From contig NZ_FPCH01000005.1 in assembly GCF_900116175.1 (NCBI RefSeq), forward strand, positions 126,501 to 190,500: DNA of 64,000 nt, given 5' to 3'. This document shows, piece by piece, positions 1,768 through 20,143 of the stretch. A model generated the notes under the pieces. That model was not told the DNA's origin, did no database searches, and was given only the letters and a program-made list of their open reading frames with translations. The DNA is from Hyphomicrobium facile. Its GTDB lineage: Bacteria; Pseudomonadota; Alphaproteobacteria; Rhizobiales; Hyphomicrobiaceae. Made by a program: the position numbers and the translations under genes. Position 1 is the first letter of the stretch, and each line of letters starts with the position of its first letter.

Positions 1768-2202
1768 ATGTCCGACACTTCGCCTGAATCGCAAGCACGC
1801 GCCGCAACGGCTGCCCTGATCCGCGACTACTACGCGGCGTTCAATCGCGGCGATACCGACACCATGCTGGACTTCCTGACCGACGACGTGATTCACGACG
1901 TCAACCAGGGTGAGCGGCGCCAGGGCAAAGAGAAGTTCCGCGCCTTCAACGCGCGCATGACACACAATTACAAGGAAGAGCTGAAGGACATCGTCGTCCT
2001 CGTCTCCAAGGACGCGACGCGCGCGGCCGCCGAATTCAACGTGCATGGAACTTACAAGAACACGGAAGAGGGTTTGCCGGACGCCGTTGGCCAGAAATAC
2101 GTTCTGCCGGCGGGCACGTTCTTCGCGATCCGCGACGGCAAGATCGCCCGCGTCACCACCTATTACAATCTGACGGATTGGATCGCGCAGGTCGCGGGCT
2201 GA
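1768..2202 (+). CDS. SnoaL/ketosteroid-isomerase-like (NTF2 fold) protein
   Basis: The 144-residue protein matches the cone-shaped NTF2/SnoaL fold: an N-terminal helix with the typical YYAAFNRGDTDTMLDFLTDD (about residues 26-45), followed by strands with VLPAGTFFAIRDGKIARVTT and a final YYNLTDWI. SnoaL-like proteins bind or isomerise small hydrophobic molecules; nothing in the sequence fixes the ligand. A GGAGAG ribosome site precedes the ATG. The GNAT gene starts 14 bp after the stop and the nitrilase-like gene follows with an overlap, so the three probably form one transcript. Confidence 0.8.
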   Translation: MSDTSPESQARAATAALIRDYYAAFNRGDTDTMLDFLTDDVIHDVNQGERRQGKEKFRAFNARMTHNYKEELKDIVVLVSKDATRAAAEFNVHGTYKNTEEGLPDAVGQKYVLPAGTFFAIRDGKIARVTTYYNLTDWIAQVAG

Positions 2203-2216
2203 GGAATCGACGAGAC

Positions 2217-2831
2217 ATGACGACTGCCGCAGGCGACAAGAAAAAACTCGACGTCAAATCGGTTACCGGGGAGGACATTCTCAAGGTCCTTCCCGATCTC
2301 AGCCGCCTGCGGATGATCGTCTTTCGCGATTGGCCGTATCTCTACGAGGGCACGCTCGAATACGAACAAAAGTATCTCGAGAAGTTCGCCAAGTCCAAAG
2401 GGGCCGTCGTCATCGCGGCCTATGATGGAGACCAGATGGTCGGCGCCTCGACCGGTGCGCCGATGATCGAGCACGCGGACGAATTCGGCGAGCCCTTCAG
2501 AAAAGCCGGCTACGACATCACGAAGATCTTCTATTGCGGCGAGAGCGTGCTGTTGAAGAGCCACCGTGGCCATGGACTGGGGCACGCTTTCTTCGATGGC
2601 CGTGAGGCTCAGGCGAAGAAGCTCGGCGGGTTCACCCATTCGACATTCTGCCGCGTCGTTCGGCCTGACGATCACCCGTTGAAGCCGGCGGATTATGCCC
2701 CACTTGATCCGTTCTGGCGCAAGCGCGGATATGCTCCTGTCGACGGGATCATCGCAACGTACGACTGGCAAGACATCGATCAACCCGGCGAGACGTCCCA
2801 CAAGATGCAGTTCTGGATGAAGACCCTCTGA
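2217..2831 (+). CDS. GNAT-family acetyltransferase (YhcX-type partner)
   Basis: The 204-residue protein reads as a GNAT acetyltransferase. The N-terminal stretch RMIVFRDWPYLYEGTLEYEQ (about 31-50) is characteristic of the acetyltransferase half of proteins in which a GNAT domain is fused to a carbon-nitrogen hydrolase, such as Bacillus YhcX. The acetyl-CoA loop is represented by SHRGHGLGHAFFDGREAQA (about 117-135). The next gene is such a hydrolase and overlaps by one base (TGA/ATG at 2829-2833), so this looks like a split version of that fusion. I chose the ATG at 2217; the frame is open 13 codons further up inside the previous gene, but there is no reason to prefer that start. Substrate unknown. 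Confidence 0.8.
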   Translation: MTTAAGDKKKLDVKSVTGEDILKVLPDLSRLRMIVFRDWPYLYEGTLEYEQKYLEKFAKSKGAVVIAAYDGDQMVGASTGAPMIEHADEFGEPFRKAGYDITKIFYCGESVLLKSHRGHGLGHAFFDGREAQAKKLGGFTHSTFCRVVRPDDHPLKPADYAPLDPFWRKRGYAPVDGIIATYDWQDIDQPGETSHKMQFWMKTL

Positions 2832-3739
2832 TGACCCCGAAGCATCTTAAAGTTGCGAGCTCGCAATATCCGATCGGCCAGCCGAAGACGCTTGCCGAAT
2901 GGGAGAAGAAGATCGCGCTGTGGGTGAAAAACGGCGCGGCCACCGGCGCGGAGCTTCTCGTATTCCCGGAATACGCGGCAATCGAGCAGGCTGCCTGCTT
3001 TGGCCCCGAGATCTACGAAGATTTGCAGGCGACGCTTACGAAAGTGGCGGAGCTGAAAGAGAGCCGCGTCCAGTTCCATCTGGAGCTCGCGGCGAAGCAT
3101 AACGTGCATATCCTCGTTGGTTCGGGACCGACGAAGAAGATCGATGGCCGCTTCGTCAACGCCGCCCAGCTCGTTACGCCCAAAGGCTCAGTCGGCGAGC
3201 AGGAAAAGCTCGTGATGACGCCGTTCGAGCATGGTTGGGGCGTCACCGCAGGCGGCCCGGTGCGCGTGTTCTCGACATCGCTCGGCACCATCGGCGTCGC
3301 GATCTGTTATGACAGCGAATTCCCCCTCATCACGCGCGCAATGGCGGAAGCGGGAGCGGAAGTGTTGCTCGTTCCCTCATGCACGGAGCGGGTCTCCGGA
3401 TATCACCGCGTTCGCACCGGCTCGATGGCGCGCGCGCTCGAGAATACGATTGCCGCCGTCCAGAGCCCGACCGTCGGCGACGCGCCTTGGTCGCCCGCGG
3501 TCGACTTCAATGCCGGCGCGGCAGGCATTTATGTGCCCTCCGAACATGGCGTATCGGATACCGGCGTGCTCGCCGAAGGCACATTGAACGCCGCTGAGTG
3601 GGTGACGGCCAGCATCGATCTCACCCGTCTCGCGCGCGTTCGCGAGACAGGCGAGATGCACAACTACGGCGACTGGTTGAAGCAGCCCGGCGGCGGAACG
3701 ACGGCGAAGGTCGACGTCGAAATCGTCAAACTGATCTGA
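2831..3739 (+). CDS. Carbon-nitrogen hydrolase (nitrilase superfamily), YhcX-like half
   Basis: The 302-residue protein carries the complete nitrilase-superfamily triad: Glu in LLVFPEYAAIEQA (about residue 42), Lys in GEQEKLVMTPFEHGWG (about 131), and Cys in GVAICYDSEFP (about 165). These enzymes cleave non-peptide C-N bonds of amides or carbamoyl compounds in the cytoplasm. It overlaps the GNAT stop by one base, so translational coupling is likely, and the pairing mirrors known GNAT-nitrilase fusions. The downstream gene is convergent, 12 bp away. The actual amide is not known. Confidence 0.88.
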   Translation: MTPKHLKVASSQYPIGQPKTLAEWEKKIALWVKNGAATGAELLVFPEYAAIEQAACFGPEIYEDLQATLTKVAELKESRVQFHLELAAKHNVHILVGSGPTKKIDGRFVNAAQLVTPKGSVGEQEKLVMTPFEHGWGVTAGGPVRVFSTSLGTIGVAICYDSEFPLITRAMAEAGAEVLLVPSCTERVSGYHRVRTGSMARALENTIAAVQSPTVGDAPWSPAVDFNAGAAGIYVPSEHGVSDTGVLAEGTLNAAEWVTASIDLTRLARVRETGEMHNYGDWLKQPGGGTTAKVDVEIVKLI

Positions 3740-3751
3740 TGGCGGTGGGCG

Positions 3752-4480
3752 CTACTTCAGCGCCCAGGTGACAGTCACGCGGGCCTCGAGCGTGCTCGTT
3801 CCGGCTTCGATCGGAACGGACATTTCGGCCTTTGCCAATCGCGGGGCGTAGGTCACAGGGCCGGTCGCCTGCGTTTCTTCCGATATCTGCAAGACGTTGC
3901 CGACTTCGGCTCCGGCGGCTGCGGCGAGAAGCTTGGCGCGCCGCAATGCGTTCGCGATGGCTTCCTTGCGGGCATCGTCCTTCAGCGTATCCTCTTTGGA
4001 AACCACGAACGACAATCCCTGAATTTGGTTGGCGCCTGCGCTTACGATCTCGTCGAGGACCTCGCCCAGTTTATCAAGAACGCGAACGTACACGACGACC
4101 TGATTGGTGACGCGATATCCCCTGAGCTGCGGCGGTTGTCCGTCCTTGGAATAATCCATCACCGGCTCGACGTTGAAAGCTGCGGTCTGGATATCCTTCG
4201 GGTTGATGCCTTTCGCTTTGAGCTCCGAGATGACCTTGCTCATCGTCTCGCTGTTGCCGGTCAAAGCTTCGCGCGCGGTCTTGGCTTCCGTCGTGACGCC
4301 TGAGGTGATGCGAGCGCTGTCGGGTTCGGCCTCGGCGGTGCCGGTTGCGGAGACCGTGATCGAGCGTTCGATAGGCATCTGCTGGGCCTGCAATCCTGTT
4401 GCCTGTGCCATGAGGAAACCCGTCACGACGGCGCCCGAGAGCGCCGAAACGAGAAATCGAGAACGCAGAGCTGTTGGCAT
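3752..4480 (-). CDS. SIMPL-domain (DUF541) periplasmic protein
   Basis: The 242-residue protein starts with a signal peptide (MPTALRSRF then a hydrophobic run ending at LQAQQMP). The remainder is a SIMPL/DUF541 domain: ITVSATGTAEAEPDSARITSG (key residues G-x-G-x and P-D near 40-60), a long variable middle, and the closing LEARVTVTWALK. SIMPL proteins form large periplasmic ring assemblies in some species, and the E. coli member YggE lowers oxidative stress. The chosen ATG at 4480 has a GAGGAG ribosome site; a 28-codon upstream extension lacks one and would bury the signal peptide. Confidence 0.88.
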   Translation of the reverse strand: MPTALRSRFLVSALSGAVVTGFLMAQATGLQAQQMPIERSITVSATGTAEAEPDSARITSGVTTEAKTAREALTGNSETMSKVISELKAKGINPKDIQTAAFNVEPVMDYSKDGQPPQLRGYRVTNQVVVYVRVLDKLGEVLDEIVSAGANQIQGLSFVVSKEDTLKDDARKEAIANALRRAKLLAAAAGAEVGNVLQISEETQATGPVTYAPRLAKAEMSVPIEAGTSTLEARVTVTWALK

Positions 4481-4672
4481 GTTGGTCTCCTCACCTTTTC
4501 CCTGGTCGCTATAAGCGGTTCGCGGGCAAAAGAGGGCAAAATCCTGTATTTCAGCTGAACGCACGGCATTTAGCGCCGGTATGCGCTCTTGGGTTGTCTT
4601 GCGACCTTCGGTTCTCCTGATATAGCATTCACGTCAGGCAGCATGAACTCCCGAAGGCACTGAGACCAAGGA

Positions 4673-5437
4673 ATGACTGAAACGCATCTTCGCGAGCGCG
4701 CCGCAAACAAGGCTGACGATTCAGACATTCGTCATTTCTTCGCAACGGACTTTCTCGTCGTCGGATTTTTCACTCCGAACTACGAGCCGGCCGCACGGGC
4801 CTTTGCGCAAAACCTCGCCGAGCATCAAATCTCGCATCACCTTTACGCGCGTCCGATCGTCGAAGGCGACTGGTACTCGCAGACCCGTCAGAAGCCGACT
4901 GTCCTGGCTCACGCCCGTCGCGATTATCCAGATGAAAATCTCATTTTCATGGATGTCGATTGCCGGGTCCGCGGTGATATCAGCGGGATACTGAACACGC
5001 GTGGTGACGTCGTCATGCGAACGAAGGGCACCGCAAAAGGAACGCAGCGCGCGCTGAAACCGACGACTCGCGTCCTGCTCCTTCGCCCGACGCCAGGGGC
5101 TGACGCCTTCGTTGCCGGATGGGAAGCCACGTGCCGCAGCGCGGGCCCCGGCCAATCAGCGGAATTCATGCTGATCCATGCGATGTCGGATAGTCCTGAG
5201 ATTTACTCTGTCGGAACGCTGCCGATCAGGCTTGCAGGCATAGAACTGCACGATGCTCTTCCCGACGCCGTCATCGTGCACGACAGCATTCGCGACCCGA
5301 CGCGTCGCGCCTGGGCGCTCCGCCGGGCCTTGCAGAAATATTTCCGCGCGGGACGTAACGCGGCTTTTCGTTTGGCGACCGGCAAAACCTATGATGAATT
5401 CCATGGCAAGCGCCGCGGGGGGCAGAAAATCCAGTAA
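4673..5437 (+). CDS. Nucleotide-diphospho-sugar transferase-like protein (GT-A type)
   Basis: The 254-residue protein has no signal peptide and looks like a small GT-A glycosyltransferase. A strand-turn IFMDVDCRVRGDI (about residues 91-103) provides the DxD metal/nucleotide-sugar motif. The N-terminal VVGFFTPNYEPAARAFAQNL fits the first nucleotide-binding strand, and PIVEGDWYSQTRQKPTVLAHA resembles the acceptor-side segment of putative nucleotide-diphospho-sugar transferases. The C-terminus is basic. It stands alone, 84 bp before the tRNA gene, so context gives no acceptor. The family call is moderately sure; the donor sugar cannot be read. Confidence 0.6.
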   Translation: MTETHLRERAANKADDSDIRHFFATDFLVVGFFTPNYEPAARAFAQNLAEHQISHHLYARPIVEGDWYSQTRQKPTVLAHARRDYPDENLIFMDVDCRVRGDISGILNTRGDVVMRTKGTAKGTQRALKPTTRVLLLRPTPGADAFVAGWEATCRSAGPGQSAEFMLIHAMSDSPEIYSVGTLPIRLAGIELHDALPDAVIVHDSIRDPTRRAWALRRALQKYFRAGRNAAFRLATGKTYDEFHGKRRGGQKIQ

Positions 5438-5521
5438 AGTTGCGTCGGCGACAGAATGCCAACGCAGAATCGCCAGCCGGCACTGGTCCTTCTGCGAACA
5501 TCTGTTAAGAGAAGCGCGCGC

Positions 5522-5597
5522 GGGCCCGTAGCTCAATGGTTAGAGCTGACGGCTCATAACCGTCTGGTTCCAGGTTCGAGTCCTGGCGGGCCCACCA
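5522..5597 (+). tRNA. tRNA with CAU anticodon (probably tRNA-Ile2, else elongator tRNA-Met)
   Basis: A complete cloverleaf can be drawn. The acceptor stem GGGCCCG (5522-5528) pairs with CGGGCCC (5587-5593), followed by discriminator A and an encoded CCA. The D arm is AGCTCAATGGTTAGAGCT, the anticodon arm GACGG-CTCATAA-CCGTC has anticodon CAT, and the T arm is CCAGG-TTCGAGT-CCTGG. The short D loop and the GGGCCC acceptor resemble the lysidine-type tRNA-Ile2 more than typical elongator tRNA-Met; this is judged by eye and would need an identity-element check. The 3' half is duplicated in damaged form at 18572-18613. Confidence 0.92.
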
Positions 5598-5598
5598 A
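5556..5598 (+). repeat. Direct repeat, tRNA-side copy (candidate attachment site)
   Basis: This is the 43-bp anticodon-loop-to-CCA part of the tRNA that recurs at 18572-18613 on the same strand. The two copies differ at three substitutions and one deleted C. Tyrosine-recombinase islands commonly use exactly this part of a tRNA as attB and leave a displaced copy at the far end. No integrase gene remains between the copies. Confidence 0.65.
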
Positions 5599-5715
5599 TG
5601 AAATCAACAACTTAACTCAAGTTCTGGCGCTCGTTGCTGCCTAATATGCGCTGGTGATCTTCGCATCGCTTATGGCGCGCTCGATCGCGGTGATCGATGC
5701 AGATGCCCAAAGTGA

Positions 5716-5999: not shown

Positions 6000-7130
6000 C
6001 TATGCGGATCGCTGCCAATCTTCGATGATCAGCTTGTACATCGCGCACGCCTCTTCGATCCTGTCTACGCTGCACCATTCGTCCGTCTGGTGCGCCAGAG
6101 AAGGTTCGCCTGGGCCGAGCAGGATCGTCGGCGCCAAGTCGAAGGCTTCGCGCAGTATCGCGCCATCGGTAAAGAAGGTTGCAGCGCTCGGCTTTTGACT
6201 TGCGCCCGTCACCGATTCAACGAGTTGCTCGACGCGCTTGACCCAAGGATCGTCGATATCGGTCGCCAAGCTCGGGACGGAGAGCTGCTGCGAAATATCG
6301 ATGTCGGGGCCGATCGCGCTCGCAATCTGTTTCAGAATGCGATCCGTGCTCCTTGGCCATACCGTTCTGAGATCCAGCATGAGGCTGGCGGTATCGGGAA
6401 CCGAATTGACGTTCTGTCCTCCGGTGATCGTACCGACGTTGAGGCTCGGGACACCGAGAAGCGGGTGCGGGTCCTCCGAAAATCTGAAGGCTCGGATGAT
6501 CCTCACCGCATCCGCGAGTTTGTAAATAGCATTGACGCCCAAATCGGGCATCGAGCCATGAGCGGTTCTGCCCTTGGCGCTGAGGCGGGCCCAGGTCGCG
6601 CCCTTGTGTCCATGCATCACGGCGTTCGCCGTCGGTTCGGCGACGACGAATGCGCCGATTTTCCCGTATTTCCCGCGGCTCTCGGCGATTGCAGCCGCGC
6701 CCTGGCAGCCGGTTTCCTCAGACGCGCTCAGCATGAGGACGATATCGGCGACACGTTCCGTGGCGCCGGCGTAAGTCTCAGCCGCCACGATAAAGGCGGC
6801 GATGCCCCCCTTCATGTCGGTTGTTCCGCGACCCGATATCCGGCCGTCGTGAATTTCTCCGGCGAGCGGCGGTCGCGTCCAGCTCTCGGCGCCCAGTGGC
6901 ACTGTGTCGAGGTGTCCGCTGAAGCATAACGCCGGTTTGCACGACGTGCCGCGCAGACGCGCGACGAGGTTGGGACGGCCGGGCGCAATTTCGCTGAGCT
7001 CTATCTCGAAGCCGGATTTAGCGAGGCGCTCAGCGAGAAGCCGCGCGCAGGCTTCTTCTTGTCCGGGCGGATTGACGGTGTCCACCCGAACCAGATCCTG
7101 GGTCAGTTGGACAGCCGGATGGGATGACAT
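6000..7130 (-). CDS. M20-family amidohydrolase (ArgE/DapE-like deacylase)
   Basis: The 376-residue protein is a complete M20 metallo-amidohydrolase. Zinc and catalytic residues are present in order: His and Asp in FSGHLDTVPLG (about 74-84), Asp in GRGTTDMKGGIAAF (about 103), the Glu pair in ASEETGCQGA (about 135), Glu in VVAEPTANAV (about 162), and the C-terminal His in EPSLAHQTDEWC (about 347). A dimerisation insert (about 180-290) is also present. Relatives remove acyl groups from ornithine or diaminopimelate; here the position 14 bp after an ABC ATPase makes it the last gene of a catabolic operon, probably cleaving an acyl or carbamoyl amide of the imported compound. Substrate is inferred only. 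Confidence 0.85.
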   Translation of the reverse strand: MSSHPAVQLTQDLVRVDTVNPPGQEEACARLLAERLAKSGFEIELSEIAPGRPNLVARLRGTSCKPALCFSGHLDTVPLGAESWTRPPLAGEIHDGRISGRGTTDMKGGIAAFIVAAETYAGATERVADIVLMLSASEETGCQGAAAIAESRGKYGKIGAFVVAEPTANAVMHGHKGATWARLSAKGRTAHGSMPDLGVNAIYKLADAVRIIRAFRFSEDPHPLLGVPSLNVGTITGGQNVNSVPDTASLMLDLRTVWPRSTDRILKQIASAIGPDIDISQQLSVPSLATDIDDPWVKRVEQLVESVTGASQKPSAATFFTDGAILREAFDLAPTILLGPGEPSLAHQTDEWCSVDRIEEACAMYKLIIEDWQRSA

Positions 7131-7144
7131 GGGTGAGGCCTAAC

Positions 7145-7942
7145 TCAGATGGATTTGAAAACTTCTATGAGGCGCCGCTTGTTTTGCACGAATGCATCCG
7201 ACACCTTGGTTGCGGCATCGCGCGGATATGGCAGCTCTATTTTGAACTCGTGAGCGACGCGGCCCGGCCTTGCCGCCATGATGCCGATCGTCTCCGACAG
7301 CAATATCGCTTCCTCGATATCGTGCGTGATGAACAAGACAGTCATGAACTCTTTGTTCCTGACGTTGAGCAAAAGCTCTTGCATTTGCTCCCGCGTTTCC
7401 GCATCGAGCGCGCCGAATGGCTCGTCCATCAGCAGGACGGCAGGTTTGTTCGCGAGCGCGCGAGCCAAGGCAACGCGTTGGCGCATGCCGCCCGAGAGTT
7501 CCTTCGGATAGGCATCGACGAACGCCGAGAGCTTGACGAGCTCGACGTAGTGCTGAGCGGCTTCTCTGCGCTCCTTCTTGCCCATGCCGCCCATCCGCAT
7601 TCCGAATGCGACGTTCTCGATTACGCTCAGCCACGGGAACAGCGTGTAGCTTTGAAAGACCATGCCGCGATCGGGGCCAGGGCTCCGCCGCACGACACCA
7701 TCGACGGCCACGACGCCGCTGGTCGCTTGGTCGAGGCCGGCCACGATATTCAGAAGGGTCGACTTTCCGCAGCCTGAGTGACCGATGATGGAATAGAAGC
7801 CGCCGCTCGGTACATCGAAAGAAACGCCTTTCAGTGCCTCGACGATTTTGCCGCGCGTTTCGAAGCGCCGGCTGATGTCGCGAACCGAGAGCTTGGCGAC
7901 GCTTTCCGTGGATGTTGCATTTGCTCTTGCGGAAAGGTTCAT
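7145..7942 (-). CDS. ABC transporter ATPase, TauB/SsuB type
   Basis: The 265-residue protein has all ATPase motifs: Walker A GHSGCGKSTLL (about 54-64), the Q-loop in GMVFQSYTLFPWLSV, signature LSGGMRQRVALARAL (about 149-163), Walker B VLLMDEPFGALD (about 170-181) and the H-loop in VLFITHDIEEA. It belongs to the nitrate/sulfonate/taurine class of importers. Its start overlaps the permease stop by four bases (ATGA at 7939-7942), so the two are translationally coupled. It should energise uptake of the substrate of the operon at the inner membrane. Confidence 0.93.
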   Translation of the reverse strand: MNLSARANATSTESVAKLSVRDISRRFETRGKIVEALKGVSFDVPSGGFYSIIGHSGCGKSTLLNIVAGLDQATSGVVAVDGVVRRSPGPDRGMVFQSYTLFPWLSVIENVAFGMRMGGMGKKERREAAQHYVELVKLSAFVDAYPKELSGGMRQRVALARALANKPAVLLMDEPFGALDAETREQMQELLLNVRNKEFMTVLFITHDIEEAILLSETIGIMAARPGRVAHEFKIELPYPRDAATKVSDAFVQNKRRLIEVFKSI

Positions 7943-8745
7943 CGGTCAAACGTCTCCGCCCAAGGCATGGTTTTCGATGAGATCCGCCGCATGATCTGAT
8001 CGGATGCCAGTCCGAGAAGTCCGATGATGGCGATGTAGAGGAAAATCGTATCGGTCTTGAGGAAGCGCTGCGCCTCCATGATTCTGAACCCCAAACCCTG
8101 TTGCGCGGCGATCAGCTCGGCAACGATCACGTATGTCCAGGCCCAACCGAGGGTGATCCGCAAATTCTCCACGAGCCCGGGCAAGCTCGCCGGAACGACG
8201 ACGTTCGTCAGCACCTGACGGCGACTTGCACCGAGCGTGTATGCGACGTTAATGACGTCGATCGGCACCGTCCGCGCGACTGCGGCCACAAGCAGTACGA
8301 GCTGAAAGTAGGTGCCGATGAAGATCATCAGGATCTTGGCCGTTTCGCCGATGCCGACGTAGAGCATGATGAGCGGAATGAACGCCGCCGCCGGCATGTA
8401 GCGAACAAAGTCCGTGAACGGCTCGAAGATCGCGTCGGCGATATGGTAGGTGCCCATCAGAATTCCGATGGGTATGGCGACGATCGCCGCCAGCGTGAAG
8501 CCCGCAAAAACGCGGAACACGCTCCATCCGATGTCGCTCCATAACCGGCCATTCTCAGCCAGAACGACGGCCTGTTTGGCAACGTCCGCAGGGCTCGGCA
8601 AAAAAAGGCGATCGACGTAGCCGCTGCTTGAGGCAAGCCACCAGATCGCAGCAGGTATAACGAATGTCGCCGCGGCAACTGTCCAGTAGAGCGCCGCCGG
8701 AATGGGAGCGCGAATGCGGCCGATTTGGCTCAACCAAGTGGGCAT
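7939..8745 (-). CDS. ABC transporter permease, TauC/SsuC type
   Basis: The 268-residue protein is a BPD-type inner-membrane permease. It has about six hydrophobic segments starting with AALYWTVAAATFVIPAAIWW, and the EAA coupling loop is visible as TLGASRRQVLTNVVVPASLP (about 191-210), which docks the ATPase. The next signature VAELIAAQQGLGFRI is typical of the taurine/nitrate/sulfonate family. It lies between the binding-protein gene (78 bp upstream) and the ATPase (4-bp overlap). Confidence 0.92.
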   Translation of the reverse strand: MPTWLSQIGRIRAPIPAALYWTVAAATFVIPAAIWWLASSSGYVDRLFLPSPADVAKQAVVLAENGRLWSDIGWSVFRVFAGFTLAAIVAIPIGILMGTYHIADAIFEPFTDFVRYMPAAAFIPLIMLYVGIGETAKILMIFIGTYFQLVLLVAAVARTVPIDVINVAYTLGASRRQVLTNVVVPASLPGLVENLRITLGWAWTYVIVAELIAAQQGLGFRIMEAQRFLKTDTIFLYIAIIGLLGLASDQIMRRISSKTMPWAETFDR

Positions 8746-8823
8746 TTAAGCGGATGTTTCCTCGAACCGGAAAAAGGCGGCGAGTGATGCAACTTCGCTC
8801 GCCGCCAAAATGGAGTGTCTACG

Positions 8824-9798
8824 TTATTCCGTGACTGCACCGACAAACTGCGGCGCAACCAGCGAAGGAACGTCCGGTTTGCTATCGATCAACTTGCTCT
8901 TGAGGAGGAAGTCTGCCTGTTCATCAGCGGTCTTGAACAACGGGCCATCCGGAGCTGCGCCGAATTCGCGAACGTTATCGGCGAGCGAGTAGAGTTTGAT
9001 CCCCGCGAGGTTCTGCTCCATCTCTTCCGCGCTGATCTCGGCGCCCTTGGCCATGATCTCCACCGCTTCCTTGCGGTTGGTCTTGATGAAGGCGAGCGCC
9101 TTGTTCCAGGCGGCGATGACCTTTTGGACGTCGGCGGAGCGCTTTTCGATCGTTTCCGCGCGGAAGACCAGAAGATCGGGCACCAAGCCTGGTGTGTCTG
9201 CGGTCGAGAAGACGACGCGGCCTTTGCCGTCCTTCGAAGCCTGGCTGAGATAGGGCTCCCAGGTTACGGCGACGTCGACGGCACCGGCGAGAAATGCCGT
9301 GCCTGCGTCTTCCGCCGACATGTTGACCGAGCTTACATCGTCAAGCGTCAGGCCTTCCTTTTCCAAGGCCCGCATCAGGATCAGCTGGCTGACGCCGCCG
9401 AGTTCATAGGCGACGCGTTTGCCTTTGAAATCCTTGATGCCGTCGATGCCGGTTTTGGCGATAATGCCGTCGGCGCCCGACGACTCGTCTGTGATGAGCA
9501 CAATGCGTCCCGGAACGCCCTTCGATGCCGGTATGATGACGTCGGCAAGGATCATATGGGTGGCGTCGAGCTGCTTGCCGGCAAACGCGGACATATCGTC
9601 CGGATGCCGCTTGAACTTGACGATGTTGGCCTTGACGCCGACTTCGTCGAAGTAACCCTTCTCTTCAACAATCCACCACGGCATCCATCCAGGCCAGATA
9701 GTCACGCCGATCTGCAACGGAGCGTCGGCGGCTTTCGCTGCCGGTAAACCCATCATGGCTGTAGCCAAGGCCAGGGCTGTAAATACTTTCCTGATCAA
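8824..9798 (-). CDS. ABC transporter substrate-binding protein, NMT1/SsuA-like
   Basis: The 324-residue precursor has a signal peptide ending at PAAKAADAP (about residue 24) and then the periplasmic-binding fold typical of the SsuA/TauA/NMT1 class: IGVTIWPGWMPWWIVEEKGY (about 29-48), the hinge GIKDFKGKRVAYELGGVSQL (about 119-138) and VDVAVTWEPYLSQA (about 173-186). Three tryptophans in the first ligand loop (WPGWMPWW) suggest a cationic or aromatic-stacking pocket; this is inference. The same class is used for nitrate, sulfonates and, in some bacteria, guanidine. It is the third gene of the operon, 37 bp after the ureohydrolase-like gene. Confidence 0.9.
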   Translation of the reverse strand: MIRKVFTALALATAMMGLPAAKAADAPLQIGVTIWPGWMPWWIVEEKGYFDEVGVKANIVKFKRHPDDMSAFAGKQLDATHMILADVIIPASKGVPGRIVLITDESSGADGIIAKTGIDGIKDFKGKRVAYELGGVSQLILMRALEKEGLTLDDVSSVNMSAEDAGTAFLAGAVDVAVTWEPYLSQASKDGKGRVVFSTADTPGLVPDLLVFRAETIEKRSADVQKVIAAWNKALAFIKTNRKEAVEIMAKGAEISAEEMEQNLAGIKLYSLADNVREFGAAPDGPLFKTADEQADFLLKSKLIDSKPDVPSLVAPQFVGAVTE

Positions 9799-9835
9799 GT
9801 CGCATGTCCTCCAGTGCTATCGAGAAATGAGCCCG

Positions 9836-10789
9836 TCAACGAGCTTGCAGCCCGTTTGCCGCGTGCGAGGCACCCAGCAAATTGAAGATGATGTAGCAGG
9901 CGAGCCGGGCTGTGATGCCCGAAGGATCGTATGCGGGGCACAGCTCGACGATGTCGAAAATGGTGACGCCGTGCCGCCCGAGCATGCGCGCCGCTGTGAT
10001 GATTTCGCGTGACGTCAAGCCGCCGGGTTCAGGTCCGCTTGTTCCAGGCGCGTAGGCCGCGTCCACGCCATCGGTATCAAAGCTGACGTACAGCGCATCC
10101 GTGCCTGCGCCCGCGATGGCGATTGCTCTGTTCATGACCTCAACGATGCCGAGCTCGATGATATCGCGCATCGCGAAGACGGTGATGCCCTTGGATTTCA
10201 CGTACTCGAATTGCCGGCGCGTATTGAGCGAGCCGCGAATGCCGATCATCACCATGTTCTTGGGATCGAGGTTCGGCAGCTCTGCAAGGCGGCACGCTTC
10301 CGACCAGTTCGAGAAGCGTTCGCCGTCGACCTCTTCTTCGGCGTCCATATTCGCGTCGAAGACGATGTAGCCGATTTTTCCAGGCGTCGCTTCCGAGAGC
10401 GCCTGACCGATGGGGATCGGAATGGAATGATCGCCGCCGATGAAGATGCCGGTGGCGCCGGAGCGGATGATCTCGGACGCGCCATGCTTCATCGCCGCCC
10501 GGCATTTCTCAGGGCTCGCTGGCACCATCGGCGCGTTGCCGCAATCGACGAGCTTGAAGGTCTCCAGCAAGTCGACGTCGTCGTCGAAGAAGTAGGGACC
10601 ATATTGGCGAGAAGCGTCGCGGAGACCGCGCGGCCCATCGGCCGTTCCTGTGCGCCAAATGCCGCCCATGTCGTAAGGCATGCCGAGGAGAGCAGCCTTC
10701 GTGCCTCTCTCCTTCAGAAGCTTGGCGTCAGCTTCAACAAAAGGTGCACCGAGAAATGTAAAAGGAGGCGGACTGCTCGTAAGTTTCAT
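9836..10789 (-). CDS. Ureohydrolase-fold (arginase/agmatinase) enzyme with altered metal motif
   Basis: The 317-residue protein is full length for the arginase/agmatinase/formiminoglutamase family, whose members hydrolyse guanidino groups with a two-metal centre. First ligand motif GGDHSIPIPIG (about 118-128) is intact, and the third, SFDTDGVDAAYAPGTSGPEP (about 230-249), keeps both aspartates. The second motif, canonically DAHxD, reads DANMD (about residues 148-152): the bridging-site histidine is asparagine (AAT codon at 10356-10358, read on the minus strand). The protein is otherwise well conserved, so it is unlikely to be a pseudogene. It may use different metal chemistry, a different substrate, or act as a partner subunit. 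It follows the nitrilase by 15 bp and precedes an ABC importer. Confidence 0.85.
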   Translation of the reverse strand: MKLTSSPPPFTFLGAPFVEADAKLLKERGTKAALLGMPYDMGGIWRTGTADGPRGLRDASRQYGPYFFDDDVDLLETFKLVDCGNAPMVPASPEKCRAAMKHGASEIIRSGATGIFIGGDHSIPIPIGQALSEATPGKIGYIVFDANMDAEEEVDGERFSNWSEACRLAELPNLDPKNMVMIGIRGSLNTRRQFEYVKSKGITVFAMRDIIELGIVEVMNRAIAIAGAGTDALYVSFDTDGVDAAYAPGTSGPEPGGLTSREIITAARMLGRHGVTIFDIVELCPAYDPSGITARLACYIIFNLLGASHAANGLQAR

Positions 10790-10804
10790 GAAGCTAAAGA
10801 TCCA

Positions 10805-11656
10805 TCAAAGATCGTTGTCATACTGGTCTGGCCGGCGGTCGCGCACGACTTGATTGTGATCGTTCCAGCGCCGCTTTCGCCGCGCGTCGGAAACATTGAC
10901 TGTGGCCAAGACGATCTCTTGCCTGTCGGAAGATGCAGGTCCGCCAACCGGCCAGCCGGTGTAGCTGACGATCAGGCTTTGTCCGATGAAAGGCTGGCCG
11001 CGCTCGGTGCCAATGCGGTCGGCAGCGGCCACGTAGATCGAGTTGGTGTGTGCGGCGGCCATTGCGATGATGTTCGCCATGGCTTCGCGCTTCGGATCTT
11101 GACCGGGAATTGGCACCCAGTTCGTTGGAATGCAGACGATGTCTGCGCCGCGCAACGTGCAGGTTCTATACGCTTCCGGAAACCACTGATCGTAACAGAT
11201 CATCATGCCGATCCGGCCGAACGGTGTTGGGAAAACCGGAAACCCAAGATCGCCGGGTTCGAAGTAGAGGTTCTCATCGCCCCAAAGATGAACTTTGCGG
11301 AATGTGCCGATATAGCCGTCGGGGCCGATCATTACCGCGGAATTGAACAACCTCTCACCAGCGCGCTCGGCGATGCCCGCGACAATGTACAAGTCGCGCT
11401 TTTTCGCAGCCGCAGACCATGCCGCGACGGTTGGTCCATCCGGAATGCTTTCAGCTAATGCGAAAGCTTCGGCGCGTGAGTTGAAGACGTATCCGGTGTT
11501 GCAGAGTTCTGGAAGAACGACGAGACGAGCGCCCTTGTCGGCAGCTTCATCAATGAGGCGAATGATGCGCTCGACGTTGCCTGCCGTGTCGCCAAAAATT
11601 GGCTCCATCTGAATGCAAGCGATGCAGAGAGGTGTTTCGCCGGATCCCGCTGCCAT
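10805..11656 (-). CDS. Nitrilase-superfamily amidohydrolase (carbamoyl/amide hydrolase type)
   Basis: The 283-residue protein has the Glu-Lys-Cys triad: Glu in LVVLPELCNTGYVF (about residue 46), Lys in FRKVHLWGDENLYF (about 117) and Cys in IGMMICYDQWFPEAYR (about 151). The surrounding residues are closest in style to aliphatic amidase/N-carbamoyl hydrolases such as N-carbamoylputrescine amidase, but this cannot be fixed by eye. It is the first gene of the operon. The leader contains a hairpin overlapping the GGAG ribosome site, and two operator-like palindromes lie just upstream. Confidence 0.88.
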   Translation of the reverse strand: MAAGSGETPLCIACIQMEPIFGDTAGNVERIIRLIDEAADKGARLVVLPELCNTGYVFNSRAEAFALAESIPDGPTVAAWSAAAKKRDLYIVAGIAERAGERLFNSAVMIGPDGYIGTFRKVHLWGDENLYFEPGDLGFPVFPTPFGRIGMMICYDQWFPEAYRTCTLRGADIVCIPTNWVPIPGQDPKREAMANIIAMAAAHTNSIYVAAADRIGTERGQPFIGQSLIVSYTGWPVGGPASSDRQEIVLATVNVSDARRKRRWNDHNQVVRDRRPDQYDNDL

Positions 11657-11665
11657 GCTTCATCT

Positions 11666-11684
11666 CCACGTCTTTCGTACGTGG
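11666..11684 (-). promoter_or_regulatory. Leader hairpin overlapping the nitrilase ribosome site
   Basis: CCACGT (11666-11671) and ACGTGG (11679-11684) form a six-pair stem, extendable by a T-A pair, around a seven-base loop. In the transcript the 3' arm includes the GG of the GGAG ribosome site about eight bases before the nitrilase ATG. It could limit translation until melted. Only structure by eye supports this. Confidence 0.4.
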
Positions 11685-11691
11685 AAATTAG

Positions 11692-11708
11692 GTTGAGCAT
11701 AGTTCAAC
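11692..11708. promoter_or_regulatory. Operator-like palindrome 1 (GTTGAG-N5-TTCAAC)
   Basis: Interrupted palindrome GTTGAGCATAGTTCAAC with six-base half sites and a five-base spacer. An identical half-site pair occurs 35 bp away at 11727-11743. The position between the XRE-cupin regulator and the first gene of the catabolic operon makes it the likely binding site of that regulator. Confidence 0.6.
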
Positions 11709-11726
11709 TGGGCGTGCAACTCTGAA

Positions 11727-11743
11727 GTTGAGTTCAATTCAAC
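11727..11743. promoter_or_regulatory. Operator-like palindrome 2 (GTTGAG-N5-TTCAAC)
   Basis: GTTGAGTTCAATTCAAC has the same half sites and spacing as the site at 11692-11708. The centre-to-centre distance is 35 bp, a little over three helical turns, which would allow side-by-side cooperative binding. The spacer differs completely, which argues that the half sites rather than the whole stretch are conserved. Confidence 0.6.
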
Positions 11744-11786
11744 TCGTCGCAGCCGCGCGAATTCTAAACTGCGCGGTGCTCGAATG

Positions 11787-12377
11787 TCAGAATGTCGGCG
11801 GCGTGTTGATCCAGATGACCTTCGCGATCTTGCGTCCTGGGTTGCGGTAGGCGTGATCGAGCCCCGATGAGAAAACGAAGCTGTCTCCCTCGGTTAGTCG
11901 AAAGGTTTCTTTGCCAATGGTGAGATCGAGGCGGCCTGCCAGCACGTAGCCGATTTCTTCGCCTTCGTGGGTGATCGAGCCGACGCTGCCATGGCCCGGC
12001 GGGATGATGTGGATATTTCCCTGAAGCTGATGGCCGGCGCCGTGCGGCACCAAACGCTCCAGGACGACCCCTACGGAAGCCCCGTTGGCTGCCGTATTTA
12101 TGAGCGGCCTGCCATTGGCTTTCGACACATGCACCGTACTTGCCGGAACGTGATCGCAGAGTGCGCCAATATTGATGCCGAGAACTTGGACAATACGGTG
12201 CAAGGTCGCGAGAGAGGGCGATGCAGCACCGTGCTCGAATTTCGAGAGGAGGCTCTTTGAGCATCCAACTTGATCTGCCACCTCCCGCAAGAGCAGACCT
12301 TTCGACTTTCGCGCCGACTTCAACCGCTGGCCAAGCTCAATCGGTTGGTTATTCGAACGTTGGCCCCTAGCCGCCAT
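11787..12377 (-). CDS. XRE-family regulator with C-terminal cupin domain
   Basis: The 196-residue protein has an XRE helix-turn-helix (about residues 12-67, LREVADQVGCSKSLLSKFEH as the recognition region) followed by a cupin_2 domain (about 110-195; HEGEEIGYVLAGRLDLTIG and DSFVFSSGLDHAYRN). Regulators of this layout, such as PuuR of putrescine catabolism, usually repress a neighbouring catabolic operon and bind the effector in the cupin barrel. It is co-directional with the nitrilase operon and 130 bp upstream of it; the gap contains two identical operator-like palindromes. Inference: a local, substrate-responsive regulator. Confidence 0.9.
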   Translation of the reverse strand: MAARGQRSNNQPIELGQRLKSARKSKGLLLREVADQVGCSKSLLSKFEHGAASPSLATLHRIVQVLGINIGALCDHVPASTVHVSKANGRPLINTAANGASVGVVLERLVPHGAGHQLQGNIHIIPPGHGSVGSITHEGEEIGYVLAGRLDLTIGKETFRLTEGDSFVFSSGLDHAYRNPGRKIAKVIWINTPPTF

Positions 12378-12843: not shown

Positions 12844-13460
12844 ATGAGTGAAGTCGCTGTTCGCAAAATCATTCACGTCGACATGGACGCCTTCTATGCC
12901 TCGGTTGAGCAACGGGATAATCCCGAGCTGCGCGGCAAGCCGGTTGCCGTCGGTTATGGCGCCAAGCGCGGCGTCGTCGCGGCCGCGAGTTATGAAGCAC
13001 GCGTGTTCGGCGTGCGCTCGACGACGGCGCTCCGGCAATGCCCGATCTCATCTTCGTGCCTCCGCGCTTCGAGGTCTATCGCGCCGTCTCGCGCCAAAAC
13101 AGGGAAATATTCGCCGCGTACACACCACTCATCGAACCGCTTTCGCTCGACGGGGCCTATCTCGACGTCACCGTCATCGAGATGGCCGATGAAGTCTGGG
13201 CCTGGTGCGAGAAAAATCAAAACTTCGGCGCGACCGTCACCGTGAAAATAAAATACGCGGATTTCAGAATTGTCACCCGCAGCCGCACCGAATCGCGAGT
13301 TGTCGCAACGCGCGACCGGCTTCACGAGATCAGCTTATCGCTTGTGCGATCCTTCTATCCGTTCACGACCGGCATTCGTCTCGTTGGCGTCGCCGTCTCC
13401 AAATTTGCATCCGACACCGACGGCCGGCTTGATCTCGCTTTAGATACAGAGCGCAGCTAG
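12844..13460 (+). pseudogene. dinB: Broken DNA polymerase IV (dinB) gene
   Basis: The first part reads [20 protein letters not shown] and [15 protein letters not shown], the palm start of Y-family polymerase IV. Near 13040 the frame shifts: the expected [14 protein letters not shown] continues in another frame, consistent with loss of one G. Further on, the catalytic SLDE motif reads SLDGAYLDV, losing the active-site Glu. The sequence then jumps from this motif straight to the little-finger strand [20 protein letters not shown], so roughly 120 residues of palm, fingers and thumb are missing. Four residues are also missing after FGVRS. Total about 205 codons against about 350-360 in intact DinB. 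Several independent lesions make this an old pseudogene. Confidence 0.88.
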
Positions 13461-18571: not shown

Positions 18572-18613
18572 ATAACCGTCGGGTTCCAGGTTCAAGTCTT
18601 GGCGGGCCACCAA
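18572..18613 (+). repeat. Degenerate tRNA 3'-half copy (candidate distal attachment site)
   Basis: The stretch reads ATAACCGTCGGGTTCCAGG and continues to GGCGGGCCACCAA, matching tRNA positions 5556-5598 with three substitutions and one deletion. The 5' half of the tRNA is absent, so it cannot be functional. The copy begins in the anticodon loop and ends one base after CCA, the usual extent of tRNA attachment sites. It marks the boundary between the cassette genes and the Tim44-like gene. Confidence 0.75.
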
Positions 18614-18641
18614 CCGTGTCAGATCCGTTTGAGATGCAAAA

Positions 18642-18667
18642 AAGGCGCTGACCGAAATCAGCGCCTT
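18642..18667 (-). terminator. Rho-independent terminator of the Tim44-like gene
   Basis: AAGGCGCTGA (18642-18651) pairs with TCAGCGCCTT (18658-18667) around a six-base loop. On the minus strand the stem is followed by a run of T residues, 30 bp after the Tim44-like stop codon. This is a clear intrinsic terminator. Confidence 0.85.
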
Positions 18668-18696
18668 GAAATTTGCCCTCGCACGTCGGCTTCGGG

Positions 18697-19635
18697 TCAC
18701 GCCTGCTGGATGGCGGAAAGCTGCCAGCCATCGGCACGAGCACGATCGTCACGACGGAACGTCCAGAGTTCTGTTGCTTCGGTGGGACGGTCAAGATCAC
18801 CGGAGACGACGCGACCCGTCTCCCGTTCTACCGTTGCGTCGATGAGGGAGTAGCGCATCGCAACCGTCGCATAGTCCGAGCCGTTGTCGCGCCAAGCCTC
18901 CGCCAGGTCACCTTGCAGGAGTTTTACGCCGGAGATTTCATTGCGCAGACCCTGCTTTGCCTTTTCCGAAATTTCCTCGCTGAAATAGGAGAGCATCTCC
19001 GGCGTGGTCATGGCTCCCAGCTTGTCAACGTCCTCGCGGCCATATGCGGTTTGAATATCCCCGAGCCGTCTCTCGAACGAATCGAAGTCATCCCCACCGA
19101 TCGTGAGCGCCGGTTCAGACGCACCGGCGCTGGTTGCGGAGGCGCGGGCGAGGCCGGCTTGCGCAAGCGTATCACGCTGCGGCGTCCGCCCAAGGCCCTG
19201 TGGGACGGCGCGCCCAAAAGCCGGCTGGTTGCGAATTCTAAGCAGCATCAGCACGAGGTAGACGATGCCGGCGATAAGCGCGAACTGCAGGAAAAATCCG
19301 AGGACACTCGCCAATGCGCCGAATCCGAAGATGCTTGCGAGGCCGGCTGCGAACAAACCGCCCAGGAGCAGGCCGCGCATTCCACCGAAGCGCGAGGGTT
19401 GCGCTGCCGCTGCGGCGGGCTGTGCGCTCGCGGGAGCGCTTTTCGGAGCCATGGATCTTTCGATCGGCGCGGCCTTCGGAGCCGTATTCGTCGGCGGCGG
19501 CGCCATGAAAGTTTTACCTGCCCTGCTACCGAAGCTTCTGCCGCCCCCAGCGCGTGCATTGGCGACGTCGGCTGCGACAATCGCGAACCCCGCCGCCAGA
19601 GTAAGGATGAGAGCGACTAAACGTGAAAGCGACAT
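18697..19635 (-). CDS. Tim44-like domain membrane protein
   Basis: The 312-residue protein begins with a hydrophobic signal/anchor (about 5-27), followed by a Gly/Ala/Pro-rich linker (AGGGRSFGSRAG), a glycine-rich double membrane segment (about 85-130, GLLLGGLFAAGLASIFGFGA and FFLQFALIAGIVYLVLMLL), and a C-terminal Tim44-like domain (about 180-310) with DFDSFERRLGDIQTAYGRED and TPEMLSYFSEEISEKAKQGL. Bacterial members are inner-membrane proteins whose soluble domain shares the mitochondrial Tim44 fold; the role is not established. It has its own terminator and is monocistronic. Confidence 0.88.
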   Translation of the reverse strand: MSLSRLVALILTLAAGFAIVAADVANARAGGGRSFGSRAGKTFMAPPPTNTAPKAAPIERSMAPKSAPASAQPAAAAAQPSRFGGMRGLLLGGLFAAGLASIFGFGALASVLGFFLQFALIAGIVYLVLMLLRIRNQPAFGRAVPQGLGRTPQRDTLAQAGLARASATSAGASEPALTIGGDDFDSFERRLGDIQTAYGREDVDKLGAMTTPEMLSYFSEEISEKAKQGLRNEISGVKLLQGDLAEAWRDNGSDYATVAMRYSLIDATVERETGRVVSGDLDRPTEATELWTFRRDDRARADGWQLSAIQQA

Positions 19636-20143
19636 ACATATCCCCGAATAGAAATGACTTCAGAGGGTATATGGGTGCGCGATCGCTGAATGTCACGGAT
19701 TTGACCGACGCAAGACCCGTCTTTTTCGGGGTCGCAGCAGCCGCTCAATGGGACGGGTCGCAGATCTTGCGACAAACAAGTCCTCAGAGCGAAAGTGCTG
19801 GTAAGCCGGGATGAAGATTTTGGCGTCCGGCTTTGCGATGAGGTGCTGAGCGAGTGGCCCGGGTGCTGCGCCGCTTCTCGCTTCTTGTTGGCGATGCGAA
19901 CGCGAATGGTCGCCATCCAGCGATCATCGAGCATTTCGATATTTGCTTCGATCCTGGGATATCTATCCCGCGCCCGTGCGTTTGCGGGAATGAGCGCAAC
20001 TCAACCTTGATCCGTCAGTGGCCATAGGCTGCTGACATTCCGATCCGAACGATGCGCACGAATTTCTTTAACCACACAAATCTTGCAACCGTTTGTGTCC
20101 GCGCGTGGTTACAGCCCCGACATCGGTAAGCTGGCAGGCCAAT
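19636..20143. other. 508-bp stretch without a recognised gene
   Basis: No frame in this stretch shows a domain or a ribosome site. It should contain the promoter of the Tim44-like gene and the upstream region of the RlpA-like gene. Confidence 0.4.

Follow-up and report, generated by a model that had tools for sequence, protein, structure and literature searches.

A horizontally acquired candidate nitrogen-scavenging operon in Hyphomicrobium facile with a rare, asparagine-substituted ureohydrolase-fold enzyme

Textbook accounts describe ureohydrolases as two-metal enzymes whose six metal ligands are highly conserved, and guanidino compounds, among them drugs like metformin, have recently been recognised as nitrogen sources for which few pathways are known. 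Here, we describe an operon-like run of seven genes, centred on a ureohydrolase-fold protein (URE), at positions 6000–12377 of a 64,000-nt stretch of the Hyphomicrobium facile contig NZ_FPCH01000005.1 (“the window”). The closest described systems are the metformin hydrolase MefH/MetCaCb and the dimethylguanidine hydrolase DmgH (PMC11399263; PMC11271267), along with operons in which the guanidine hydrolase GdmH is combined with an ABC importer and linked to nitrogen use (PMC12186494).

The seven open reading frames (ORFs) all lie on the minus strand and encode, in gene order, a regulator with XRE-type and cupin domains (REG), a nitrilase-superfamily amidase (NIT), URE, an NMT1/SsuA-family substrate-binding protein (SBP), an ABC permease, an ABC ATPase, and an M20-family deacylase (M20). 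The gap between REG and NIT spans 130 bp, and those from NIT to M20 measure 15, 37, 78, −4, and 14 bp, the 37-bp value presuming a TTG start of SBP at 9798 (an ATG at 9756 would give 79 bp). An earlier sequence-only reading had proposed a regulated uptake-and-hydrolysis operon here, and the genes, strand, positions, gaps, and families it listed were all borne out by the ORF list and Pfam matches. That reading contained neither the tRNA-bounded mobile island nor the altered metal site of the central enzyme, in which one canonical ligand histidine is missing; these, and a closest kinship with modular NIT clusters, are our three additions to it.

The explanation we favour, and hold with evenly balanced confidence, is a horizontally acquired, inducible nitrogen-scavenging operon for a small substituted guanidino (or related amidino) compound. 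SBP, the permease, and the ATPase would import this compound, M20 would strip an acyl group from it, and URE would split its C–N centre, the outcome being either urea or a product of ureido or amide type. NIT would hydrolyse the ureido or amide nitrogen that remains, and REG would control the operon via TTGA-N7-TCAA sites. We infer that one compound passes through all of these enzymes, as well as the order of the steps, the substrate class, co-transcription of the genes, and the mode of action of REG.

The central enzyme and its metal site

Among solved structures, the nearest relative of URE was metformin hydrolase alpha (243 bits, E 2e-71), with guanidinopropionase and guanidinobutyrase far below. 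The solved GdmH chains 7esr and 9fek scored 170 bits, i.e., GdmH is not the closest relative of URE. The agmatinase model TIGR01230 was matched at 153.2 bits, short of its equivalog cut-off of 174.3, and alpha-like proteins of order-mates were 38–41% identical to URE. Aligned with metformin hydrolase alpha, the metal positions of URE are H121, D145, N147, D149, D238, and D240: five of the six canonical ligands (two His and four Asp) are kept, and N147 replaces the metal-B histidine (H185 in metformin hydrolase). Asn occupies this position in 7 of 7 URE members and His in all 24 other distinct ureohydrolase segments compared, degenerate beta-like ones included, while the other five metal positions and E282 are invariant across the seven members. 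The counterpart in Escherichia coli agmatinase, His151, is described as a ligand of tightly bound Mn in excerpts of PMC8125230, and H151N reportedly abolishes activity entirely whereas H126N halves it (excerpts of PMC7313459, citing earlier work). For metformin hydrolase, alanine at metal ligands is likewise described as inactivating (excerpts of PMC11271267). Because of N147 and this loss of agmatinase activity, the generalisation invoked by the sequence-only reading, that ureohydrolases cleave guanidino groups, is not simply transferable to URE.

Outside the metal site, N161, S251, and E282 of URE align with N199, S289, and E320 of metformin hydrolase alpha. Excerpts of PMC11271267 call N199 unusual, report N199A as inactive, and name both S289 and E320 essential residues; in DmgH itself, position 289 is Thr. 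N161 occupies the position of the catalytic histidine of most family members, and among the 24 other segments Asn was found there only in six alpha-like sequences. Ser at the 251 position occurred in two of these six, and Glu at the 282 position in all 24 segments compared. This pocket would point to substituted guanidines; M20 may hint at an acylated form, and NIT at a product of ureido or amide type.

Ratios of non-synonymous to synonymous substitution rates (dN/dS), read with the caveat that synonymous sites are near saturation, were 0.054 and 0.049 for URE when the window was compared with the relatives at loci L005 and L006, versus 0.099 and 0.152 for NIT in the same pairs, and the ranking was reversed for the pair L009–L010 (URE 0.061, NIT 0.049). 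Given this strong purifying selection, we take URE to be a working enzyme whose site has been remodelled. An AlphaFold2 model built from six sequences reached a mean pLDDT of 62, too low for a fold search. Somewhat more tentatively, and with slightly less than even confidence, we propose that URE may be a naturally Asn-liganded ureohydrolase in which a substitution that kills agmatinase has been made workable through shifted metal use or chemistry. It would act in series with the nitrilase, the pair representing the “ureohydrolase–nitrilase” version of a mobile, modular pathway of nitrogen catabolism that, in its other versions, has GATase1-like/M24 or urease genes in their place. A branch with five ligands and a fixed Asn under strong selection would make the question of one versus two metals testable on a natural enzyme.

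Judging from the genomes searched, URE is a rare branch of the ureohydrolases. A scan of 84,980 species genomes with URE-derived patterns, which may miss diverged relatives as they were built from one sequence, yielded six relatives, 73–88% identical over their best segments. Three partly overlapping genome samples, drawn from the order (297), the phylum (398), and the class (385), all include the H. facile genome, which was the sole one with a URE member; the limits were stricter in the phylum and class searches. Within the genus, this genome and four others were searched. Nine non-members in the order sample passed 1e-60, at 37–41% identity to URE. In the orders of three of the relatives, URE carriers numbered 2 (of 16 genomes), 3 (of 36), and 1 (of 17), all of them previously found. 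Plasmids contributed four records at 1e-60 (41–43% identical), and no relative was found among viral contigs.

Recurring gene blocks, candidate operators, and the island

NIT was directly upstream of URE in five of the six other URE loci, at distances of 15 bp (L005), 14 bp (L006), and 17 bp (L009), and either about 12 bp or a 4-bp overlap in L008 and L010, two loci with uncertain gene starts. Its residues E50, K121, and C154, which we take to be the Glu-Lys-Cys catalytic triad, were present in all 20 rows compared, and a PTNWVP motif was common to the 18 NIT clade members and absent from the two outgroup rows. The two best curated models were matched below their cut-offs (252 vs 500 bits, and 177.7 vs 410 bits for AguB). 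The importer beside NIT–URE varies: L010 carries a peptide-type importer after URE, with an SBP_bac_5 binding protein and four further genes identified by eye, and L009 a binding protein and permease, spermidine/putrescine-like in appearance, that diverge from NIT. Positions 7816–8055 of L009 also hold an 80-residue remnant of the final gene of the importer that is intact in L010, to which it is 64% identical. M20 genes recur beside NIT as well, diverging from NIT–URE in L006 (46% identical to that of the window) and overlapping NIT in L128 and L141 (39–43% identical). Elsewhere, in L121, a 31%-identical ureohydrolase (773–1651) and an M20 relative are separated by about 5.4 kb that contain other genes.

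Relatives of NIT are common on plasmids, with 71 records reaching 1e-60, of which 14 are 60–80% identical. Among 11 plasmid neighbourhoods examined, four (Shinella L138, Neorhizobium L139, Paracoccaceae L141, and Raoultella L142) combined NIT with an M24 gene and an importer of the NMT1 type, six had another importer, and one record was unannotated; the genome locus L128 is a fifth cluster of the NMT1 type. All five except L141 also contain a GATase1-like gene, and the NIT proteins of the Shinella and Neorhizobium clusters are 69–70% identical to that of the window. We know of no function for these NIT/M24/NMT1-importer clusters. A creatinase-like M24 protein replacing URE in the plasmid clusters was considered and dropped, as the M24 proteins seem, in our reading of their alignment, to keep aminopeptidase metal ligands. 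The importers next to NIT in the six other plasmid loci carry annotations of branched-chain amino acid type, in most cases, or of substrate-binding type; three of these loci encode an ANTAR regulator and three encode urease. The urease and NIT clusters were located on Ancylobacter and Paracoccus plasmids (L140, 13753–16162; L143, 9304–12705; L148, 13615–16816), and CBASS genes lie a few kb from the NIT cluster of the Raoultella plasmid (L142, 15329–16846). Because most of the deeper forks of the NIT tree are weak or open, the tree leaves NIT with URE and NIT without it both as candidate ancestral states.

REG matched the PuuR model at 87.4 bits, below its cut-off of 211, and is 49–50% identical to the regulators that precede GATase1-like and NIT genes on the Shinella and Neorhizobium plasmids. 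The putative operator motif TTGA-N7-TCAA, present in two copies in the REG–NIT gap of the window, has two copies in L138 and one in L139, in each case in gaps flanking the regulator, and was not found in eight loci without a REG relative. Across the 64 kb, three matches were counted vs 0.82 expected, a number reached in 5 of 100 shuffles; since the motif was chosen by eye and counted afterwards, these statistics are post hoc.

The operon was horizontally acquired and sits on a mobile island of about 13.0 kb. The 3′ end of a tRNA-Met gene (5556–5592) is repeated downstream with a start-to-start spacing of 13016 bp. In the sister genome G1085 (L131), window positions 3500–5599 match 3–2119 and 18639–19834 match 2175–3375, while the intervening stretch is absent from the alignment, and the sister therefore has an empty site. 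The directly repeated tRNA 3′ end and the unoccupied site of the sister are what is expected of a tRNA-borne genomic island. Composition alone would not betray it, since its G+C (guanine plus cytosine) fraction of 0.58, compared with 0.606 outside, falls within the 0.573–0.630 spanned by 65 same-size downstream windows. The tRNA-Met 3′ end is also repeated at a distance in the sisters G1081 and G1075 (L134, 14835–14875; L137, 5853–5901), which suggests that this tRNA gene may be an integration hotspot. Besides the operon, the island carries dinB, an alpha/beta hydrolase, a glycosyltransferase, a sulfatase-family gene, and an IspD-like gene; dinB (DNA polymerase IV family, 12844–13460, plus strand) is split over two frames and probably broken. 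No integrase was recognised among the larger island ORFs by Pfam scan (smaller ORFs were not scanned). Taken together, the island and the plasmid-borne relatives of operon parts suggest that the operon spreads. Outside the island, a tight plus-strand trio at 1768–3739 encodes a SnoaL-like protein, a 204-residue protein with no Pfam match, and a distant nitrilase-superfamily protein (84 bits).

Table 1 Features of the operon and island (window coordinates) and related genes elsewhere in the same genome
Feature	Position	Strand	Basis or remark
REG, XRE-HTH and cupin regulator	11787..12377	−	Pfam HTH and Cupin_2
Predicted operator TTGA-N7-TCAA	11728..11742		REG–NIT gap
Predicted operator TTGA-N7-TCAA	11693..11707		REG–NIT gap
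NIT, nitrilase-superfamily amidase	10805..11656	−	Pfam CN_hydrolase, 190.3 bits
URE, ureohydrolase-fold enzyme	9836..10789	−	Pfam Arginase, 240.2 bits, cut-off 22
SBP, NMT1/SsuA-family substrate-binding protein	8824..9798	−	Pfam NMT1/NMT1_2; TTG start
ABC permease	7939..8745	−	Pfam BPD_transp_1
ABC ATPase	7145..7942	−	Pfam ABC_tran
M20 family ArgE/DapE-type deacylase	6000..7130	−	Pfam M20; TIGR01910; aligned with other M20 proteins
tRNA-Met (CAT), integration site of island	5522..5597	+	tRNA search, Rfam
Second copy of tRNA-Met 3′ end, island far end	18572..18608	+	37 bp, 92% identical
Guanidine-hydrolase-like genes, own genome	L048 6869–8098 (C5); L049 8633–9856 (C3)		Transporter neighbours differ (by eye)

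Substrate and competing explanations

For the importer and deacylase, curated models offered partial guidance. SBP, whose N terminus looks signal-peptide-like by eye, passed the cut-off of the SsuA family (TIGR01728; 196.5 vs 163.5 bits), and M20 that of the ArgE/DapE deacylases (TIGR01910; 221 vs 217.6 bits). Of 19 non-self loci with SBP relatives (short flanks), three, from order-mates, have a guanidinopropionase-like gene next to the SBP relative, and the one of these three ureohydrolases that was compared with solved structures scored 406 bits to 3-guanidinopropionase. The H. facile genome itself holds four ureohydrolase genes, URE included. Two of them are guanidine-hydrolase-like, one scoring 437 bits to 7esr and the other being 96.6% identical to it, and one lies behind an SBP-related binding protein and permease- and ATPase-looking genes. 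Because of these two genes, plain guanidine is an unlikely substrate and is probably served elsewhere in the genome. The C5 copy starts with a His-rich stretch, and positions 260–4108 of L049 (C3) encode an isochorismatase-like hydrolase, a binding protein 37% identical to SBP, an ATPase, a permease, and a RidA-like protein (the others named by eye). Salvage of the thiamine pyrimidine, in which an NMT1-type binding protein is paired with an M20 deformylase, was considered because of the NMT1 name but seems unlikely, as no thiamine gene is among the curated-model and Pfam families of the operon.

Several observations weigh against the guanidino operon. The full six-family gene set was found here only and in no relative, so the gene-order conservation that the sequence-only reading had offered as a check holds for sub-blocks and not for the whole. 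One URE locus (L007), on a contig of low coverage by its title and with a short deletion in URE, lacks NIT, the best NIT-like protein of that genome being only 40% identical; conversely, NIT occurs without URE in all 12 such regions examined (11 plasmid regions and L128). In the 11 regions fetched around 15 non-self M20 matches of the order, NIT was present in L128 alone, and the importers of the NIT clusters are not close kin of that of the window, the similar parts being REG, NIT, and M20. At the gathering score of Rfam, no guanidine riboswitch was detected in the window and five relatives, where only tRNA was returned. The metal-B Asn of all seven members also counts here, considering what excerpts report for agmatinase H151N (PMC7313459) and for alanine changes in metformin hydrolase (PMC11271267). 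On the other side, the idea of an uptake-and-hydrolysis operon retains a regulated set whose parts co-occur: NIT with URE in five of six loci, NIT with M20 in L006, L128, and L141, REG with NIT in L138 and L139, and SBP relatives with ureohydrolases. The sequence-only interpretation is supported in part; the substrate and the up to three hydrolyses that it proposed are still putative.

These observations leave room for four alternatives. It is possible, if unlikely, that URE cleaves an N-substituted amidine or formimino compound to a short-chain amide such as formamide, with NIT as the finishing short-chain amidase. URE does match the formimidoylglutamase model, but at 120.6 bits against a cut-off of 229, and its pocket residues match metformin hydrolase alpha instead. 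The six plasmid loci with other importers, three of them with ANTAR regulators, would suit such amides, as would the binding protein of L140, the sole one tested, which scored 228 bits against UrtA, below the cut-off; however, the urease in three of these loci would fit urea, too. The fixed Asn raises the quite unlikely prospect that URE is no longer a ureohydrolase and now either partners NIT in a structural or regulatory role or works with a single metal and another specificity. Pseudoenzyme subunits do occur in this family, as MefH beta lacks four of the six metal ligands, but the operon has no second URE that could act as partner, all seven members agree at Glu 282 and at the five remaining metal positions, and dN/dS is about 0.05, below that of NIT for L005 and L006, albeit not for L009–L010.

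It is improbable that the operon serves guanidine or a simple guanidino acid (guanidinopropionate or guanidinobutyrate), with NIT and M20 handling side products. The guanidinopropionase-like neighbours of SBP relatives speak for it, as does the second-best curated family of SBP, “putative urea” TIGR03427 (146.8 bits, below the cut-off of 333.9). Yet the two guanidine-hydrolase-like genes, one behind importer-looking genes, the low rank of guanidinopropionase and guanidinobutyrase for URE, and the lack of a clear role for NIT and M20 all argue otherwise. We also give little credence to an importer for an unrelated compound, e.g., a sulfonate, with the genes together merely by island assembly. 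The curated family of SBP is named for aliphatic sulfonates, and the island genes are of mixed functions, but no sulfonate-cleaving enzyme family was among the curated-model and Pfam matches of the operon proteins, and the NIT–URE, NIT–M20, and REG–NIT links recur in other taxa.

Comparison with described systems

URE shares its fold with metformin and dimethylguanidine hydrolases, has their subunits as closest solved relatives, and carries the pocket Asn, Ser, and Glu. Unlike metformin hydrolase, it is encoded by a single gene with no adjacent beta-subunit gene, has Asn at the H185 position, and is partnered by a nitrilase. No hypA or hypB was recognised by eye among the listed ORFs of the window and of the relatives’ loci, where no model search was made. 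As in the GdmH operons described in excerpts of PMC12186494, an ABC importer accompanies a ureohydrolase; however, URE is no GdmH orthologue (170 bits, vs 437 for the GdmH-like protein of the same genome), and the guanidine riboswitch was not found. NIT has the N-carbamoylputrescine amidase AguB and a PH0642-type nitrilase as its best curated and solved relatives, but stays far under curated cut-offs and belongs to the clade marked by PTNWVP.

The NIT/M24/NMT1-importer clusters resemble the operon in a related NIT (L138, L139, L141, L142, and L128), a related regulator and operator-like motif (L138 and L139), and a related M20 (L128 and L141), and differ from it in carrying M24, mostly with a GATase1-like gene, and no URE. 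Searches of the open-access PMC literature on the gene set or its parts brought up no description of the set. With one His fewer than the canonical metal site, neither a beta subunit nor a riboswitch found, and scores under the cut-offs for agmatinase and AguB, the operon falls outside all described systems. Overall, by analogy, it would work like a guanidine- or dimethylguanidine-hydrolase nitrogen operon, of which it may be a new variant, and it is a candidate for a further pathway of guanidino-compound nitrogen use.

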